Source: Marine Group II euryarchaeote MED-G33
GTDB taxonomy: Archaea; Thermoplasmatota; Poseidoniia; Poseidoniales; Thalassarchaeaceae
Assembly (NCBI GenBank): GCA_949538655.1
Contig: CATISE010000078.1
Location: forward strand, 1-34,400
Direction: 5' to 3'
Length of the DNA stretch: 34,400 nucleotides
Position numbers and translations under genes: made by a program. Numbering within the stretch: the first letter of the stretch is position 1; each line of letters begins with the position of its first letter. The notes below the pieces were generated by a model. The model did not search any database, had not been told where the DNA came from, and saw nothing but the letters and a program-made list of their open reading frames with translations. This document shows, one piece after another, positions 358-7,251 of this stretch.

Positions 358-1179
358 TCAAGCGATACGATCCACAGTCTCTGGTGTAATGGCTTCATCC
401 TTGGTAACACGGAATGAAATGGCTTTGAGATTCTCAGGTCCATTTCTGAACTTCCGAATAACCATCCGTGTTTCAAAATCGGTTCCAAGCATTCCAACTT
501 CGAATTCCATGACAATATCACAAATGGAACGCAACTCACGCTCCACCGATTTGTCAACCATGTCACTAGATACATTGAGCAAGAGAATACCTCTGTGCAA
601 TTGCGCATGTGCTTGAATCATTCGCAGCATCGAGATGACTCGAGATGGTTCATTTCTAGCGAAGAAAAAGTCGAGGTTATCGATTGCAGCTCGGAAGTAA
701 GTGGGCATAGAGGTCATCTGACTTGTGAGATCGGTTAGATAATCGTGGATGTCATTATCGACGAATCTGGTTTGTGCAAGTCTCTGAATGTCTTGCATTG
801 TAAAACCCTCAAGCCTGTAACGACTGGCTCGTAAATCACGTTCCAAGACATTGCGGTTGTATTCTTCACCCATGGTGCGTACCATGATGTCAGTGGGCCA
901 ATCATATCGACGGAATAGTGAAAGAATTTCAGCTTGACTTTCAGCCGTGGAAATCAGCAATGTCTTTTCGGCATCTTCAGCAACCGATACAAATTGTTTC
1001 CCAAACAAATCCATTCCTGCACCTTGGTTTCCAATGGCCAGCAGTGTAAATCCACGTGGAATGCTGCCTTCATTGAGTGGACTACCAGTCAAGATTGCAT
1101 CGAATTTGGGTGAGCCAATACTTGCCATGTCACCATAGAACTCTTCATCATCGGCATCAAATCGAACAGTTGTTGTCAT
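358..1179 (-). CDS. KaiC/RecA-superfamily-like protein with degenerate Walker A (pseudo-ATPase)
   Basis: ORF 358..1194; the ATG at 1179 preceded by GAGGTG is the more likely start than the TTG at 1194. Degenerate P-loop GNQGAGMDLF (Lys replaced by Met), Walker-B-like RAAIDNLDFF, adjacent to two other KaiC-like genes. Confidence 0.65.
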   Translation of the reverse strand: MTTTVRFDADDEEFYGDMASIGSPKFDAILTGSPLNEGSIPRGFTLLAIGNQGAGMDLFGKQFVSVAEDAEKTLLISTAESQAEILSLFRRYDWPTDIMVRTMGEEYNRNVLERDLRASRYRLEGFTMQDIQRLAQTRFVDNDIHDYLTDLTSQMTSMPTYFRAAIDNLDFFFARNEPSRVISMLRMIQAHAQLHRGILLLNVSSDMVDKSVERELRSICDIVMEFEVGMLGTDFETRMVIRKFRNGPENLKAISFRVTKDEAITPETVDRIA

Positions 1180-1190
1180 ATCAGCACCTC

Positions 1191-1778
1191 TCAATGGATT
1201 ACGACCTGCCCACGGTCAATCAGGTCGGTGCAATACAGATCTAAATTTGCAAGCACACCTGGTGGTGTTTGGTCTGGAACGTTAACGATCGCCGTTAGCA
1301 CCTCACGTGCGCGAAACGTGTTGATGAATGTGTGAAGATATTCTGCCAGCATTCTCTTTTCATTGTAAATTGATAGTGCATTGACTGAATCAAGAATTAC
1401 GAAATTACCGGTTTCAGTGTATTCACCCAAGTGGTATAATGTCTGCAGCATGATTGACTCTAGCATGATTGGACTGTCTACAAATCGAACATTTGGATAG
1501 GGTATATTTGTGCCACCGATGAAACCACTTGACACCGTATCGATGAATTGAATTCCACTAGGGTCAACCCCAATTTGCTCAAGTGTTTGAATGACTTCTG
1601 TAGCGCTGCGAGATGCACAGATGTAGACACCTCTCATTTCAAAGCCCTGAATCAAAGGTTGCAACAATGAGGCGATAATCAACTCGGAATTACTCGTGCC
1701 GACACGAACCTGAATTGCTGATGAAGGTGTGGCTTCTTCAGCCAATTGCTGAGCGATACCTGTGTCCAATTCAATCAT
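1191..1778 (-). CDS. KaiC/RecA-like protein lacking Walker A
   Basis: Walker-B-like NFVILDSVNALS and RecA-like order of secondary structure, no GxxGxGK motif; overlaps the upstream KaiC gene by 8 nt. Confidence 0.6.
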   Translation of the reverse strand: MIELDTGIAQQLAEEATPSSAIQVRVGTSNSELIIASLLQPLIQGFEMRGVYICASRSATEVIQTLEQIGVDPSGIQFIDTVSSGFIGGTNIPYPNVRFVDSPIMLESIMLQTLYHLGEYTETGNFVILDSVNALSIYNEKRMLAEYLHTFINTFRAREVLTAIVNVPDQTPPGVLANLDLYCTDLIDRGQVVIH

Positions 1779-2619
1779 TCACAGCACCCCACTTCAACAT
1801 CGGCGTGAGCATCACACCCTTCGGTGTCAACTCTAAGGCATATTTCGCTCGTGCGTGAGATGTCCCTCTCATTTTTACGACCTGAACAAATCGTAGAAGA
1901 TGCCCCATTCGCTCAACGTCTCCGAGCACGATGATACCATCGAGAATGGCTTCTTCAACACCGAATGATGACCAGTATGCCTTGGCACCTGAAGATGTAA
2001 TTTCTGAGACGAGCAATGCAGTACAACCGAGTGTAGCAAGTGCTTTTCCAAGTTTGAACAAGAAGTCACGAATCAATTGCTCACTTGGGATTTTGTAGCA
2101 CAACGTTGTGACTGAATCAATTACCAATCGAGTTACACCAATCGTGTTGACGATATCTGTAATCGACTTGACCATGGCGTCGATATCTGACAATTCAAAC
2201 GTCGACTTCGTCATCCCTAGCCAAGAGAACAGGACGTCCATGTCGAATACGTTGATCAAACCTTGATCCACCAGTTGCATGTCGAAAAAGTCGAATTGAC
2301 GGACGTTCTCAAGAAGTTTGACAGAGGGCTCCGTCGCAGAAAAATGGGCGCAAGCTTCTCCATTGCTTGCACCATTCACCAGGAATTCCATGCACATTGT
2401 TGTCTTGCCTGAACCACAGGTTCCGGCGACAAGAACGGTGGAACCGTAAGGGATTCCACCTCGCAAAATCTCATCCAACCCAGGAATTCCTGTGACACAC
2501 CTGTCACGCTGGTACTGGGGGGTCGGCATCATGGGAACAGTCCGCGATTCAACAGGCTGTAGATAAGCCGATTGACTCAGAGGTGCCGAATTCACCCCAA
2601 CTGACGAGTTTCTTACCAA
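1771..2619 (-). CDS. KaiC-domain ATPase
   Basis: TGIPGLDEILRGGIPYGSTVLVAGTCGSGKTT (Walker A), RLVIDSVTTL (Walker B), C-terminal VVKMRGTSHARAKYALELTPKGVMLTP typical of KaiC-like proteins. Start uncertain (TTG at 2619). Confidence 0.88.
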   Translation of the reverse strand: MVRNSSVGVNSAPLSQSAYLQPVESRTVPMMPTPQYQRDRCVTGIPGLDEILRGGIPYGSTVLVAGTCGSGKTTMCMEFLVNGASNGEACAHFSATEPSVKLLENVRQFDFFDMQLVDQGLINVFDMDVLFSWLGMTKSTFELSDIDAMVKSITDIVNTIGVTRLVIDSVTTLCYKIPSEQLIRDFLFKLGKALATLGCTALLVSEITSSGAKAYWSSFGVEEAILDGIIVLGDVERMGHLLRFVQVVKMRGTSHARAKYALELTPKGVMLTPMLKWGAVND

Positions 2620-3692
2620 CCGGGTGTACCGCCGTCAACAGCGGTCCAATTTGTCAAACTGCTCGGTGAGCCACCAAGGTTGTAGGTCATTGAGTGATTT
2701 GCCTGGATGTTCCACGTATTATCCCAAGTAATGACAATTACATCATACGTCAATACAGTACCAGGCCGAGTCCAACCAAGTGTGATGGAATCTCCCTCGG
2801 CAGCCAATGTATCGATTGTACCAGTTCCAAGCACACCACTAGATGCTAAATCAATCATTGGGACATTGTAGGGGTTGTACTGTGTGGCTGAATTGCCAGT
2901 GCAAATAACGCGTCCACCGGCAGCTACGGCTCCATCCTGAATCAACTCAAATGCTCCCGGCCGGGACATGCTCCATCCAGAAAGGTTCATCGCAAATCCA
3001 TCAGGGTTTTCCAATTCAATCCACTCTGGTGGACCGTTCAATGGGTCGGCCATAAATTCAGTAATTCTGAGTCCCGATGGCTCCCGTCCCGCATTGTGTA
3101 CTTCCAATGTTACGCGCACAGAATCATCACCTAGATGCATTACACGACTCGCAGTGGCACCTTGCGTTGCGCCGGAGCGGTGAGACCCGTCTGAGAAGAC
3201 AATTTCACCAATGCTTGATTCGTCAGCACTTTGTACGATTATAATCGTTAGATTGATACTCAATCCTTCATCGATTCCAAGGCCATGAATGAGACGATCT
3301 TCTGTCACATTCCCGAGTGCTGAAATCCGATTCAAATCAAGATGCCCATCGCCATCCCCGATTGCGGGCAATAGATCAGCAGTGAGCAATGTACTGGCGT
3401 TGTATACATGCCAATCATCGGTTGAATTTTCGATATCACGGATTCCAGCGTCCCTTAACACAACATGGCCCTTAGAATCTGTCAATCTTTCGAGACTATC
3501 GATGGCCATTTTATCCAGTCGATCTGTGTCGGCCACATTGCTCCCCAGTTTCAGCTGGCTAAGGGCAAGAAAAGCACTGACGATGACCAAGAAAAGCACG
3601 AACGCGGAGAGGAATTCAACCACTGCCGTCAAGCCTCTCTCGTCGCGCACTTTTCGTGCGCTCGCGACCGCGTTCCCGCCCCGCCTCATCAT
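2613..3692 (-). CDS. Type IV pilin-like N-terminus with lamin-tail-like (LTD) domain, secreted/membrane protein
   Basis: RDERGLTAVVEFLSAFVLFLVIVSAFLALSQL resembles an archaeal pilin N-terminus; LRITEFMADPLNGPPEWIELENPDGFAMNLSGWSMSRPG resembles LTD. Overlaps the downstream KaiC gene by 7 nt. Confidence 0.7.
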   Translation of the reverse strand: MMRRGGNAVASARKVRDERGLTAVVEFLSAFVLFLVIVSAFLALSQLKLGSNVADTDRLDKMAIDSLERLTDSKGHVVLRDAGIRDIENSTDDWHVYNASTLLTADLLPAIGDGDGHLDLNRISALGNVTEDRLIHGLGIDEGLSINLTIIIVQSADESSIGEIVFSDGSHRSGATQGATASRVMHLGDDSVRVTLEVHNAGREPSGLRITEFMADPLNGPPEWIELENPDGFAMNLSGWSMSRPGAFELIQDGAVAAGGRVICTGNSATQYNPYNVPMIDLASSGVLGTGTIDTLAAEGDSITLGWTRPGTVLTYDVIVITWDNTWNIQANHSMTYNLGGSPSSLTNWTAVDGGTPGW

Positions 3693-3811
3693 GCTGCCAT
3701 AATGGTCGCATCCATCAACCCTGTGGCTAGATTCGTAGTGTCGTACAATCCTTCTGTTGCAGTGTCAGTTCGCCGAGGGGTATTTACGGGCCGTTTGTGG
3801 TCGTCGGTTCA

Positions 3812-6800
3812 ATGGGTTCAGTCCAGCGCGCCCTACGGGCGCGGAAGCAGCACCGTGCGAGCGGCTTGGTTTTGCTGATGATTTTCAGCTCTCTAGCGGC
3901 ATTTTTGGCACCCGTTCAAGCCAGTATTGCCACAGACGATTTGGCGATTGTGTCAGCGATTGAACCTCAACCGGAGATTCATTATGACTCCGACGACCTA
4001 ATCGATTGGACGCCCAGTGTTTTGATTGAAAATCAATATAATTTCAATGCCGTGGCTCGTACAATCGATCTCGAGATTTGTGGTGGTGATCACACCGGAC
4101 TTGCTACCTGCCCGGCTCAACATATTGTGAAAGAAGCATCCGCACAATCTCCAAATCTCAATCGCTCAGGAGTCGATGGTGATTCAGCAATTGTTTCCTT
4201 TTGGTCGTTCTTGTGGTTCGTAGACGCGGGAGATATTTCGACGTATTCTGGCGTTTTCACAGTCATGTTCCATTTTGCGATTGAAGACAGCAACGCTGCC
4301 AATGACCACCTTCGATATACAGTAACAATCGAAGAGGACTTGGTCGATTTGATCGCCAATGATCATGATGTTGACACATCAGTGGTATACAATAGTGGTA
4401 CTCCGATTCCTGCCAATCTCGATGTGCGTAGCCGTTCATGGCCGCAAGGTCAAAGCTTCTACACCCATTGGTCGATGCATTTGATCAGCCCATTGGTTGC
4501 TGAATCCCAAGATTGTGTTGATTGGGATATGAATTTCACAGGTATAGGTGACGCGGATGGTTCGGGTGAATTGATTATTCACACTGCAAATCACTATAAT
4601 TCAACCTCGAGTATTCACTACACCCCGTTCGATATCGAAGTTATGCTCACCAATAACTCAAACAAACTCCTAGGCAACATTGCAGTCACAGGAACCGAAT
4701 GGGGCGTTAATCATGATGTCGAAGTTACTGCTTCAGTGAACGGAACAGAGGTATACACCGAAAATTGGCTATTCGTTGGTGATGGAACAGTCCAGACCCA
4801 GCAATACAATACCGATCTCGAAAATGGTACGCTTTGCTTCACAGTCAAGATGACTGTAGATGAAATGCAAGTTGCTGAAGACAATCATGAGGTGACCGGT
4901 TTTGATGGGACATACAATTCCCAAATGATTCCATTGCCCGACATCATCGCGCCTTTCGCTGATGATTTTGAAGTTCGCGCATGGGTGAATGGGACTCAAT
5001 TGGACCCTAATTTATACAATGATATGATTGTCTTTGATCTCACAGTTAACGATACCACCGATGTATGGATTCGCGAAGTTGTCCCAGCACGTGGCACCAC
5101 TACGTATGTTTTCCAGGGAGGGGAGTATCTCGTCCGGTTCCCTTACGGCGAACAGTCGATTCGTGTTGTATCTGGAAATATTGGTTGGGTGACTGCAACC
5201 TCGACAGTCGAAGTGAATCTCTACAATTTGGTTACCAATGAATTTGCTGCGGGCCCCTATACCTGCGAAGTTACACTAATGCCTGGGGAAGAAACCAATT
5301 GTGATTTTGATTTCTCTTCAACAGGACTCTACACCCTCAATGCATCGATTACAACCACCGATGGTAACATCGATTCTCTACCCAGTGACAACTGGTTCGA
5401 GCAAGCGATCATCATTGATTTTGGAGCGATTAATCCAACAATTGCAAACCCTTCACCAACGGATGTTTTCGAAACCGGACAAAATATTCTCGCTGTTGCT
5501 GCAGTCGACCCACAGGCTCCAATGCCGTTAAATTACACATGGAGGATGAATTTCATGGAGATTTTGGGCTATGGGGCAGTCACCAATGTCACATTGCCCA
5601 TGGGCGAGTGGGTTCTAACCCTATATGTGACAGATGAAGCTGGAAATCTTGAAATCGCCACACAAAACATTCGTATTCTCAACAGAGTTGAATTGCAATC
5701 GATGCCTTACGTCACAGATGGTGTAGCGATTTCTACCTACTCAATGGAACTCGATTTCGATCCACCTCAATTGCCTCCGCCTGGAGTTTTCTATCCATCT
5801 GCATACAACAAAGGAATGGAGCCATTGGCCCTCTTCAACTTGACAATGGAATCCCCCTATGGTGTCGACATTAATGTAGACAGTATCGAAGCGTGGATTG
5901 ATTTGGACCAATTCCTCCCATCTTCAATCAATCAATCAACAGTCGAATTGTTGCGCTTATCAAATTGGTCCTCAACAGTCACAAATGAATTGGATGGTGC
6001 TGAGAGTTTTACCGTTTACAACAACGGTAGCCTACACATGACGTTGACCATGCACAATGGGGGCTCGTTCATGATTATTGGAGATCTAAGCCCCGTTGAA
6101 GTCAATCCTGCAAATTTGACCATGGTGCTCCAAAAAGATGGCCAAGTTCAACTGGAATGGGAAAATGAAGGAGATGTCGAGAATCCTTATTTCGGTGGCT
6201 GGAAGATTTTCAGAAAAGACACATTCCGATTTATTTTCCCGTATGATTCAGCTTCACACTTCGATGCATCAACCGGAGGTTATGCAATTACAGAAGTCTC
6301 GAGCGACACACAATCTTGGCAAGACCCCAATTTCTGGGAAGAAGGAACTTGCCTGTCCTATCTTGTGATGTCTCATAATCGTGCTGGGATGATTGATTGG
6401 CGGTTCGGAAACGTATCGAATGCGGTGTGGGATTCTGTGCAAGAACGCATGGTTGTCGACGAAGTTTGTGTCGATGATTCAGATCCTGGGACCACAGTAC
6501 AGAGCATGGATGCAATAGCCACCTTCGACAATAATTCCAAGCGCCACACGATTCATGTTAGTTGGACATGGCCCGAAATTGATGATGAAGGGCCATTGGC
6601 CTGGAATCTCTATCGCTCTCAAGTTGTACTACCGAGCGTCACTTACATGGAACCACTCGTCATTGGATTGCAGGGCACACCAGGTGAGACAGAATGGTTC
6701 AATGAATCAGAAAGTGGATTGCGTGAATCAATCAAGGTAGAGCAATTCTACTACTATGTGTTGGTCCCATTTGATGCGGTTGGGAACAGCGACTATCTTG

Positions 6801-7165
6801 TCCGGGATGCCAATGCGGTAGAAATCGAATTAGATGACATGTTCTGGGATTATCCTCACAATCAACCTCCGATTGAAGGTTGTAGGGACAGTAGTGCTGA
6901 AAATTACGATTCTGAAGCATTGATCGAAGATGGCTCGTGTACTTATCCCTGGGATGGCCGTCTTCAGAATGATCTCAAATCAGGAGCATTCCAGCAGGCA
7001 GGAATTGTTTGTCTTGCCTTGGGTGTGATGAATATGCTGATGATTCCTATGCTCATTAACAAGTTCAAGGAACAGAAGGTCAAACTCAAGCGAAAGCGTG
7101 CCAGGCAAAAGCGACTTTCTGGTGTTGAAGACTTCGCTGACGATTTAGAGGACTTCTTCGATTGA
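3812..7165 (+). CDS. Large surface protein with signal peptide, Ig-like repeats and C-terminal TM anchor
   Basis: ORF 3797..7165; TATA-like tatttac at 3781 is about 26 nt from the ATG at 3812 (leaderless start). N-terminal hydrophobic signal, C-terminal GIVCLALGVMNMLMIPMLI then basic tail; CRDSSAENYDSEALIEDGSCTYP motif near the C-terminus. Confidence 0.8.
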   Translation: MGSVQRALRARKQHRASGLVLLMIFSSLAAFLAPVQASIATDDLAIVSAIEPQPEIHYDSDDLIDWTPSVLIENQYNFNAVARTIDLEICGGDHTGLATCPAQHIVKEASAQSPNLNRSGVDGDSAIVSFWSFLWFVDAGDISTYSGVFTVMFHFAIEDSNAANDHLRYTVTIEEDLVDLIANDHDVDTSVVYNSGTPIPANLDVRSRSWPQGQSFYTHWSMHLISPLVAESQDCVDWDMNFTGIGDADGSGELIIHTANHYNSTSSIHYTPFDIEVMLTNNSNKLLGNIAVTGTEWGVNHDVEVTASVNGTEVYTENWLFVGDGTVQTQQYNTDLENGTLCFTVKMTVDEMQVAEDNHEVTGFDGTYNSQMIPLPDIIAPFADDFEVRAWVNGTQLDPNLYNDMIVFDLTVNDTTDVWIREVVPARGTTTYVFQGGEYLVRFPYGEQSIRVVSGNIGWVTATSTVEVNLYNLVTNEFAAGPYTCEVTLMPGEETNCDFDFSSTGLYTLNASITTTDGNIDSLPSDNWFEQAIIIDFGAINPTIANPSPTDVFETGQNILAVAAVDPQAPMPLNYTWRMNFMEILGYGAVTNVTLPMGEWVLTLYVTDEAGNLEIATQNIRILNRVELQSMPYVTDGVAISTYSMELDFDPPQLPPPGVFYPSAYNKGMEPLALFNLTMESPYGVDINVDSIEAWIDLDQFLPSSINQSTVELLRLSNWSSTVTNELDGAESFTVYNNGSLHMTLTMHNGGSFMIIGDLSPVEVNPANLTMVLQKDGQVQLEWENEGDVENPYFGGWKIFRKDTFRFIFPYDSASHFDASTGGYAITEVSSDTQSWQDPNFWEEGTCLSYLVMSHNRAGMIDWRFGNVSNAVWDSVQERMVVDEVCVDDSDPGTTVQSMDAIATFDNNSKRHTIHVSWTWPEIDDEGPLAWNLYRSQVVLPSVTYMEPLVIGLQGTPGETEWFNESESGLRESIKVEQFYYYVLVPFDAVGNSDYLVRDANAVEIELDDMFWDYPHNQPPIEGCRDSSAENYDSEALIEDGSCTYPWDGRLQNDLKSGAFQQAGIVCLALGVMNMLMIPMLINKFKEQKVKLKRKRARQKRLSGVEDFADDLEDFFD

Positions 7166-7168
7166 TGG

Positions 7169-7251
7169 CGCGACGTGGGAGATTTGAACTCCCGTGGGTG
7201 AACCCACTGGTTTAGCAAACCAGCGCAATGGCCAGACTATGCGAACGTCGC
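7169..7251 (-). tRNA. tRNA-Ser (anticodon GCU)
   Basis: Reverse complement GCGACGT TC GCATAGTCTGGCCATTGC G CTGGT TTGCTAA ACCAG TGGGTTCACCCAC GGGAG TTCAAAT CTCCC ACGTCGC G: 7-bp acceptor stem, long variable arm, discriminator G, anticodon GCT. Confidence 0.95.

Follow-up and report, generated by a model that had tools for sequence, protein, structure and literature searches.

A conserved trio of KaiC-family proteins, two with degenerate nucleotide-binding sites, in the company of type IV pilus genes in Poseidoniales

What does a KaiC-type ATPase do in a tight gene cluster with two relatives that have lost their P-loop, behind the gene for a pilin-like protein? KaiC-like proteins have been proposed as signaling hubs in archaea, and few of their partners have been identified; a 2017 mBio paper reportedly treats KaiC proteins as such hubs. 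A connection between KaiC proteins and pili is known. The trio of one intact and two degenerate copies is apparently undescribed: the 2017 archaeal KaiC paper aside, no description of it was found in the literature.

Four genes at the end of a contig

The window, by which we mean the whole stretch of DNA analyzed (34,400 nt), is an entire contig (C78) of a 1.84 Mb genome that is 79% complete and whose closest named relatives are Ca. Thalassarchaeaceae, order Poseidoniales. The initial annotation described four minus-strand open reading frames in 358-3692 that overlap or almost touch, and all four are in place in the order LTD-pilin, K1, K2 and K3; the K1 and K2 frames overlap by 8 nt and the gap between K2 and K3 is 11 nt.

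2613..3692, minus strand: LTD-pilin, 359 aa (PF00932, 39.1 bits)
1771..2619, minus strand: K1, single-domain KaiC ATPase (PF06745, E=2.3e-55)
2398..2424, minus strand: intact P-loop of K1, GTCGSGKTT (79/79 Poseidoniales copies)
1191..1778, minus strand: K2, degenerate KaiC of 195 aa, no P-loop (AF2 pLDDT 73)
358..1194, minus strand: K3, pseudo-KaiC (PF06745, 33.6 bits; AF2 pLDDT 77)
1003..1032, minus strand: degenerate P-loop of K3, GNQGAGMDLF (GxxGxG kept, K-[ST] lost)
442..453, minus strand: KFRN motif of K3, at the place of the KaiC KxRG motif
3797..7165, plus strand: large secreted/anchored protein, divergent from the quartet (start uncertain; no Pfam family)

The start of K1 is most likely ATG 2532, where its homologs begin, and not TTG 2619. 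The true start of K3 is most likely ATG 1179, which is preceded by a ribosome-binding-like site (GAGAGGTG), and not TTG 1194. Since the contig stops 357 bases after K3, a prepilin peptidase gene next to K3 would be invisible in the window; bases 1-174 hold the end of another, convergent gene, for which prepilin peptidase was ruled out.

K1 is a single KaiC domain of ~230 aa, and not the CI-CII pair of domains that characterizes circadian KaiC. It scores 187.9 bits against PF06745 (gathering cutoff 26.6), its core is invariant among 17 homologs, and KaiC clock proteins were the top matches of a PDB sequence search. Walker B is kept as well as the P-loop, whose GK[TS] is found in 56/56 copies from families outside Poseidoniales. 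In the CI domain of KaiC, a KxRG-type motif touches the ATP of the adjacent subunit, and in K1 it is KMRGTSH that aligns with the KLRGTSH of KaiC. Where KaiC has two adjacent glutamates as its catalytic pair (E-E), K1, like ArlH, has T-E (ATEPS), and strong ATP hydrolysis by K1 is therefore not to be assumed. The NCBIfam ArlH model gave K1 a score of 35 bits versus an equivalog cutoff of 215.

In the case of K2, RVGTSNSELIIA or a similar sequence stands where the P-loop should be, in all copies; the protein ends before the C-terminal KxRG hairpin and keeps LDSVNAL. Its PF06745 score of 17.3 bits is below the gathering cutoff of 26.6, and neither a PDB sequence search nor a profile-profile comparison with K1 produced a match. 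The empty comparison with K1 means that the homology of K2 rests on the Pfam members and on the fold. Foldseek with the AlphaFold single-chain model, which is of moderate confidence (pLDDT 73), placed PH0284, KaiC and FlaH on top (E about 1e-6, probability 1.00). As modeled, K2 is a KaiC that has diverged and been truncated.

K3, which exceeds the PF06745 cutoff (33.6 vs 26.6 bits), is a full-length divergent KaiC. Its single-chain model, also of moderate confidence (pLDDT 77), matched KaiC (3.7e-11) and FlaH (4.4e-11) in Foldseek with probability 1.00. K-[ST] is absent from all copies of the P-loop, which reads GNQGAGMDLF or similar in Poseidoniales and mostly GxPGSGxELFAKQF elsewhere; MGIII retains G-K-E. 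Within the KFRN motif, F, R and N are invariant and K nearly so in the Poseidoniales alignment, and other families mostly have KxRNxPE. The nearest NCBIfam model is ArlH, at 41.9 bits, with its cutoff of 215 bits far above. K3 also grouped with ArlH in the tree, a hint only, with weak support (87/64) and flagged as long-branch attraction.

A Walker-B-like Asp is retained in both K2 and K3. Active KaiC-type ATPases carry Walker A in each subunit, and here K1 is the only one of the three to carry it. These results agree with the initial annotation, which had given GTCGSGKTT to the first KaiC copy only, no Walker A to the second and GNQGAGMDLF to the third, and they extend it from the window to all copies, as the P-loop loss is common to them. 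The structure predictions, which had been suggested as a check on whether the degenerate copies have a RecA fold, likewise returned a RecA/KaiC fold for both.

Conservation and age of the trio

The Poseidoniales set consisted of 80 loci taken from genome contigs of both families, and practically all of them whose contigs allow it have the quartet complete and in order. One locus (L031) is rearranged: upstream of K1 lies a divergent pilin gene, and the LTD-pilin gene is downstream of K3 and convergent to it. Beyond the order, the K2 profile gave strong matches (E<1e-22) in 69 further Thermoplasmatota genomes. K1 adjoins K2 in 56 of 57 fetched loci, which come from 24 Thermoplasmatota families outside Poseidoniales, and K3 comes next in 44 of the 57. 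The gene-neighborhood check proposed for the initial annotation thus came out in its favor, both for the quartet in the two Poseidoniales families and for the K1-K2 pair in the 24 others.

In the tree, K1, K2 and K3 each formed one clade (UFBoot 83, 100 and 98, respectively). Because each paralog is one clade and is kept phylum-wide, the degeneracy of K2 and K3 is ancient and retained, and because the pattern of the three proteins is conserved through order and phylum, it is not a product of chance. Judged from the sequences, the trio is an ancient set, mostly vertically inherited, in which the loss of the nucleotide site in two members is old.

Two families (f13 and f20) have a protein of ~372 aa with a match to MetOD1 (methanogen output domain) between K2 and K3 (L161:3751-4875; L163:8285-9400). 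Two more KaiC-like genes of the source genome (G000:C9:1384-2061 and G000:C111:964-1632) occur in many relatives, and no pilus linkage of either was seen in the stretches read.

Association with type IV pilus genes

In the LTD-pilin, a short basic leader precedes a class III-like site (G^LTAVVEF) and a hydrophobic stretch, and a lamin tail domain lies at the C terminus. That domain (39.1 bits vs a cutoff of 34.3) was its sole Pfam match, and Pilin_N (PF07790) gave none. All 74 readable Poseidoniales homologs have G (40) or A (34) as the residue preceding the predicted cut. This pattern of residues predicts signal cleavage and an exported, pilin-like protein. In both Poseidoniales families, most loci encode a homolog of the 3797-7165 protein upstream of the LTD-pilin gene and divergently from it; this companion of the cassette is probably a surface component. 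In the window, a minus-strand tRNA-Ser (GCT) gene at 7166-7251 directly adjoins the stop codon of this large gene.

Other type IV pilus genes lie beside the trio in relatives. A Pilin_N gene follows K3 in other Thalassarchaeaceae genera (L016, L017, L020, L077, L120 and L121), and a prepilin peptidase gene is convergent to K3 in the window's own genus, in loci with enough downstream sequence (L004, L009 and L011-L015). In L120, a prepilin peptidase gene is directly upstream of the LTD-pilin gene. Among the 57 non-Poseidoniales loci, 15, from 11 families, have Pilin_N genes at <=3 kb, for a rough expectation of about 0.7 loci, and the distant family f20 has an LTD-pilin homolog upstream of K1 (L163 and L180). 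At the genome level, Pilin_N was found in 148/152 strict K2-positive genomes versus 91/195 K2-negative ones, a descriptive figure, since the pilin-association tests ignore phylogeny. These neighbors strengthen the earlier proposal of a link to an exported pilin-like LTD protein, and the association of the module with a pilus is well supported. In Poseidoniaceae the cassette adjoins the A-type ATP synthase operon, and no pilin gene was seen beside it in the loci read, the rearranged L031 excepted. Some families have type IV pilus genes and no triad; the triad is therefore not essential to these pili.

No T2SSE or T2SSF gene was noticed directly beside the triad in the window or in the relatives' loci read. 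The initial annotation saw no ArlI, ArlJ, PilB or PilC homolog in the window, and this stands for the window; the rest of the genome encodes ArlI, ArlJ and ArlH as well as two T2SSE/T2SSF sets. Its three T2SSE (secretion-ATPase) loci are C225, C59 and C121. The first is the archaellum locus, with ArlI above the NCBIfam cutoff and ArlH and ArlJ-like genes; this ArlH scores 150 bits on the NCBIfam ArlH model (cutoff 215). C59 (type A) encodes a TadA-like ATPase and two T2SSF proteins with OB-fold-like neighbors, and C121 (type C) is a further secretion-ATPase locus.

Across 59 relatives, the cassette always occurred with the type A TadA-like ATPase (43/43 genomes), and type A occurred without the cassette in 3 of the 59, in genomes that are 70-81% complete. 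The distribution of type C almost equals that of type A, so the two cannot be told apart as the partner ATPase, and a small number of losses may account for the phyletic match within Poseidoniales. A positional trace also links the cassette and type A: genes for a UbiE-like methyltransferase and A-type ATP synthase subunit I are beside the cassette in Poseidoniaceae and beside type A in this genome, and the methyltransferases of the two settings are 51% identical. In L116:11900-14998, as in L125 and L130, the type A ATPase and two T2SSF genes are clustered with genes for 2-3 OB-fold/RPA-like proteins, which gave one weak OB-fold Pfam match and are odd company for a pilus.

A remark on Methanomassiliicoccus in PMC4858521 suggested that triad-bearing genomes might have no secretion ATPases. 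This idea was rejected, as T2SSE was found in nearly all of the strict K2-positive genomes. Two were noted without it, G086 (68% complete) and G132 (97%). In G132, which has K2 at C109, there was a weak Pilin_N match and no T2SSE match at 1e-5; this genome either has a gap in its assembly or uses the module without a pilus.

A candidate switch for a pilus, and its alternatives

The conserved trio beside type IV pilus genes suggests an ancient switch controlling surface filaments. A model for such a role is ArlH (FlaH), which binds the filament ATPase of the archaellum and has been proposed to switch it (PMC12448462). Like the proteins of the trio, ArlH is a filament-associated, single KaiC-like domain; its NCBIfam model is the closest to K3, and its T-E is common to K1. 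The module differs in lying outside the arl operon, in having three paralogs in place of one, two of them P-loop-less, and in a distribution independent of the archaellum, and its ArlH scores (K1 35 bits, K3 42) contrast with the cutoff of 215. By this analogy we consider it fairly probable that K1-K3 are an ancient cytoplasmic module of the KaiC family that depends on ATP and serves a non-archaellum type IV pilus as switch or adaptor.

The conserved operon, the loss of sites in K2 and K3, and the pilins, prepilin peptidase and TadA-like ATPase with which the module is associated can be read from the genomes themselves. To these we would add a mechanism, in line with the hetero-oligomeric switch suggested in the initial annotation, in which K1 binds ATP and cycles. 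K3, without the P-loop lysine and with KxRN kept, would adjoin K1 in a mixed ring as its trans partner, reading or completing the K1 site, and K2, with neither half of a site, would serve for docking or as a cap. The module would dock to TadA/TadC and gate pilus assembly or the choice of pilin, and the LTD-pilin may belong to the same filament as a minor or tip pilin. The specific form of this proposal, a phylum-wide mixed ring of one nucleotide-binding and two pseudo-ATPase subunits that switches pilus assembly with K3 as the trans half, is put forward tentatively, as less likely than not.

The main rival is a KaiC-type signaling hub that acts on transcription, with the pilin genes among its targets and no contact with the pilus machine. 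An association of KaiC with archaeal type IV pili was proposed in 2016 for arCOG01171, arCOG01174 and arCOG01175 (Makarova et al., PMC4858521), to one of which K1 may belong. In its passages on these families, that paper resembles our findings in placing KaiC genes near type IV pilus genes and proposes KaiC families as regulators of pilus expression; it differs in describing KaiC families and not a fixed operon of two pseudo-ATPases and an LTD-pilin. The KaiC homolog CirA affects motility and shape in Haloferax (PMC13286277), and the MetOD1 protein that f13 and f20 have between K2 and K3 would fit an output of this kind. However, the neighborhoods read showed no DNA-binding partner, and the KaiC protein closest to K3, ArlH, is a structural switch. 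We regard the hub as unlikely, if worth keeping in mind.

Far less probable is that the genes are archaellum parts, as extra ArlH-like components. The KaiC fold and a similar published distribution of the MGII archaellum (PMC6461757, PMC6336850) speak for it, but ArlH and ArlI are encoded in a separate arl cluster of the genome, at C225, and the neighboring pilins are Pilin_N type IV pilins. The cassette and the archaellum ATPase also dissociate in four genera: g5 and g6 have the ATPase and no cassette, and in g2 and g4, which have the cassette, no archaellum ATPase was found. Membership in the archaellum was accordingly rejected, and the archaellum link at which the initial annotation had hinted gives way to an accompaniment of another type IV pilus.

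A circadian-type timing device is more improbable still. The trio shares the RecA fold with cyanobacterial KaiC and PH0284-type proteins, and K1 has the P-loop, Walker B and KMRGTSH, with clock proteins leading its PDB matches; however, the proteins of the module have one domain and not CI-CII, and K1 has two partners without nucleotide-binding residues, unable to bind nucleotide normally. Nor was a gene for KaiA or KaiB noticed in the vicinity. Functionless decay of K2 and K3 as duplicates, which the loss of catalytic residues might suggest, is refuted by a mean column identity in Poseidoniales of 80% for K2 and 72% for K3 and by their phylum-wide retention, and can be set aside.

As a pilus switch, the trio would be a case in which pilus and archaellum are controlled separately, in abundant marine archaea for which attachment to particles is assumed. 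A fixed trio, two members of which have the fold only, that travels with pilins offers a concrete test of KaiC control over surface filaments; its conservation is striking, as is the one-plus-two design, and the mechanism is what we infer from them.

Relatives of the trio may extend to haloarchaea. K2 (3.5e-6 at best) and K3 (1.9e-8 at best) weakly match the uncharacterized Pfam families DUF7090 and DUF7125, with the proteins of the window below the gathering cutoffs. Among 14 control genomes, these two families exceed their cutoffs only in Haloferax volcanii, and the trio may have a haloarchaeal version.
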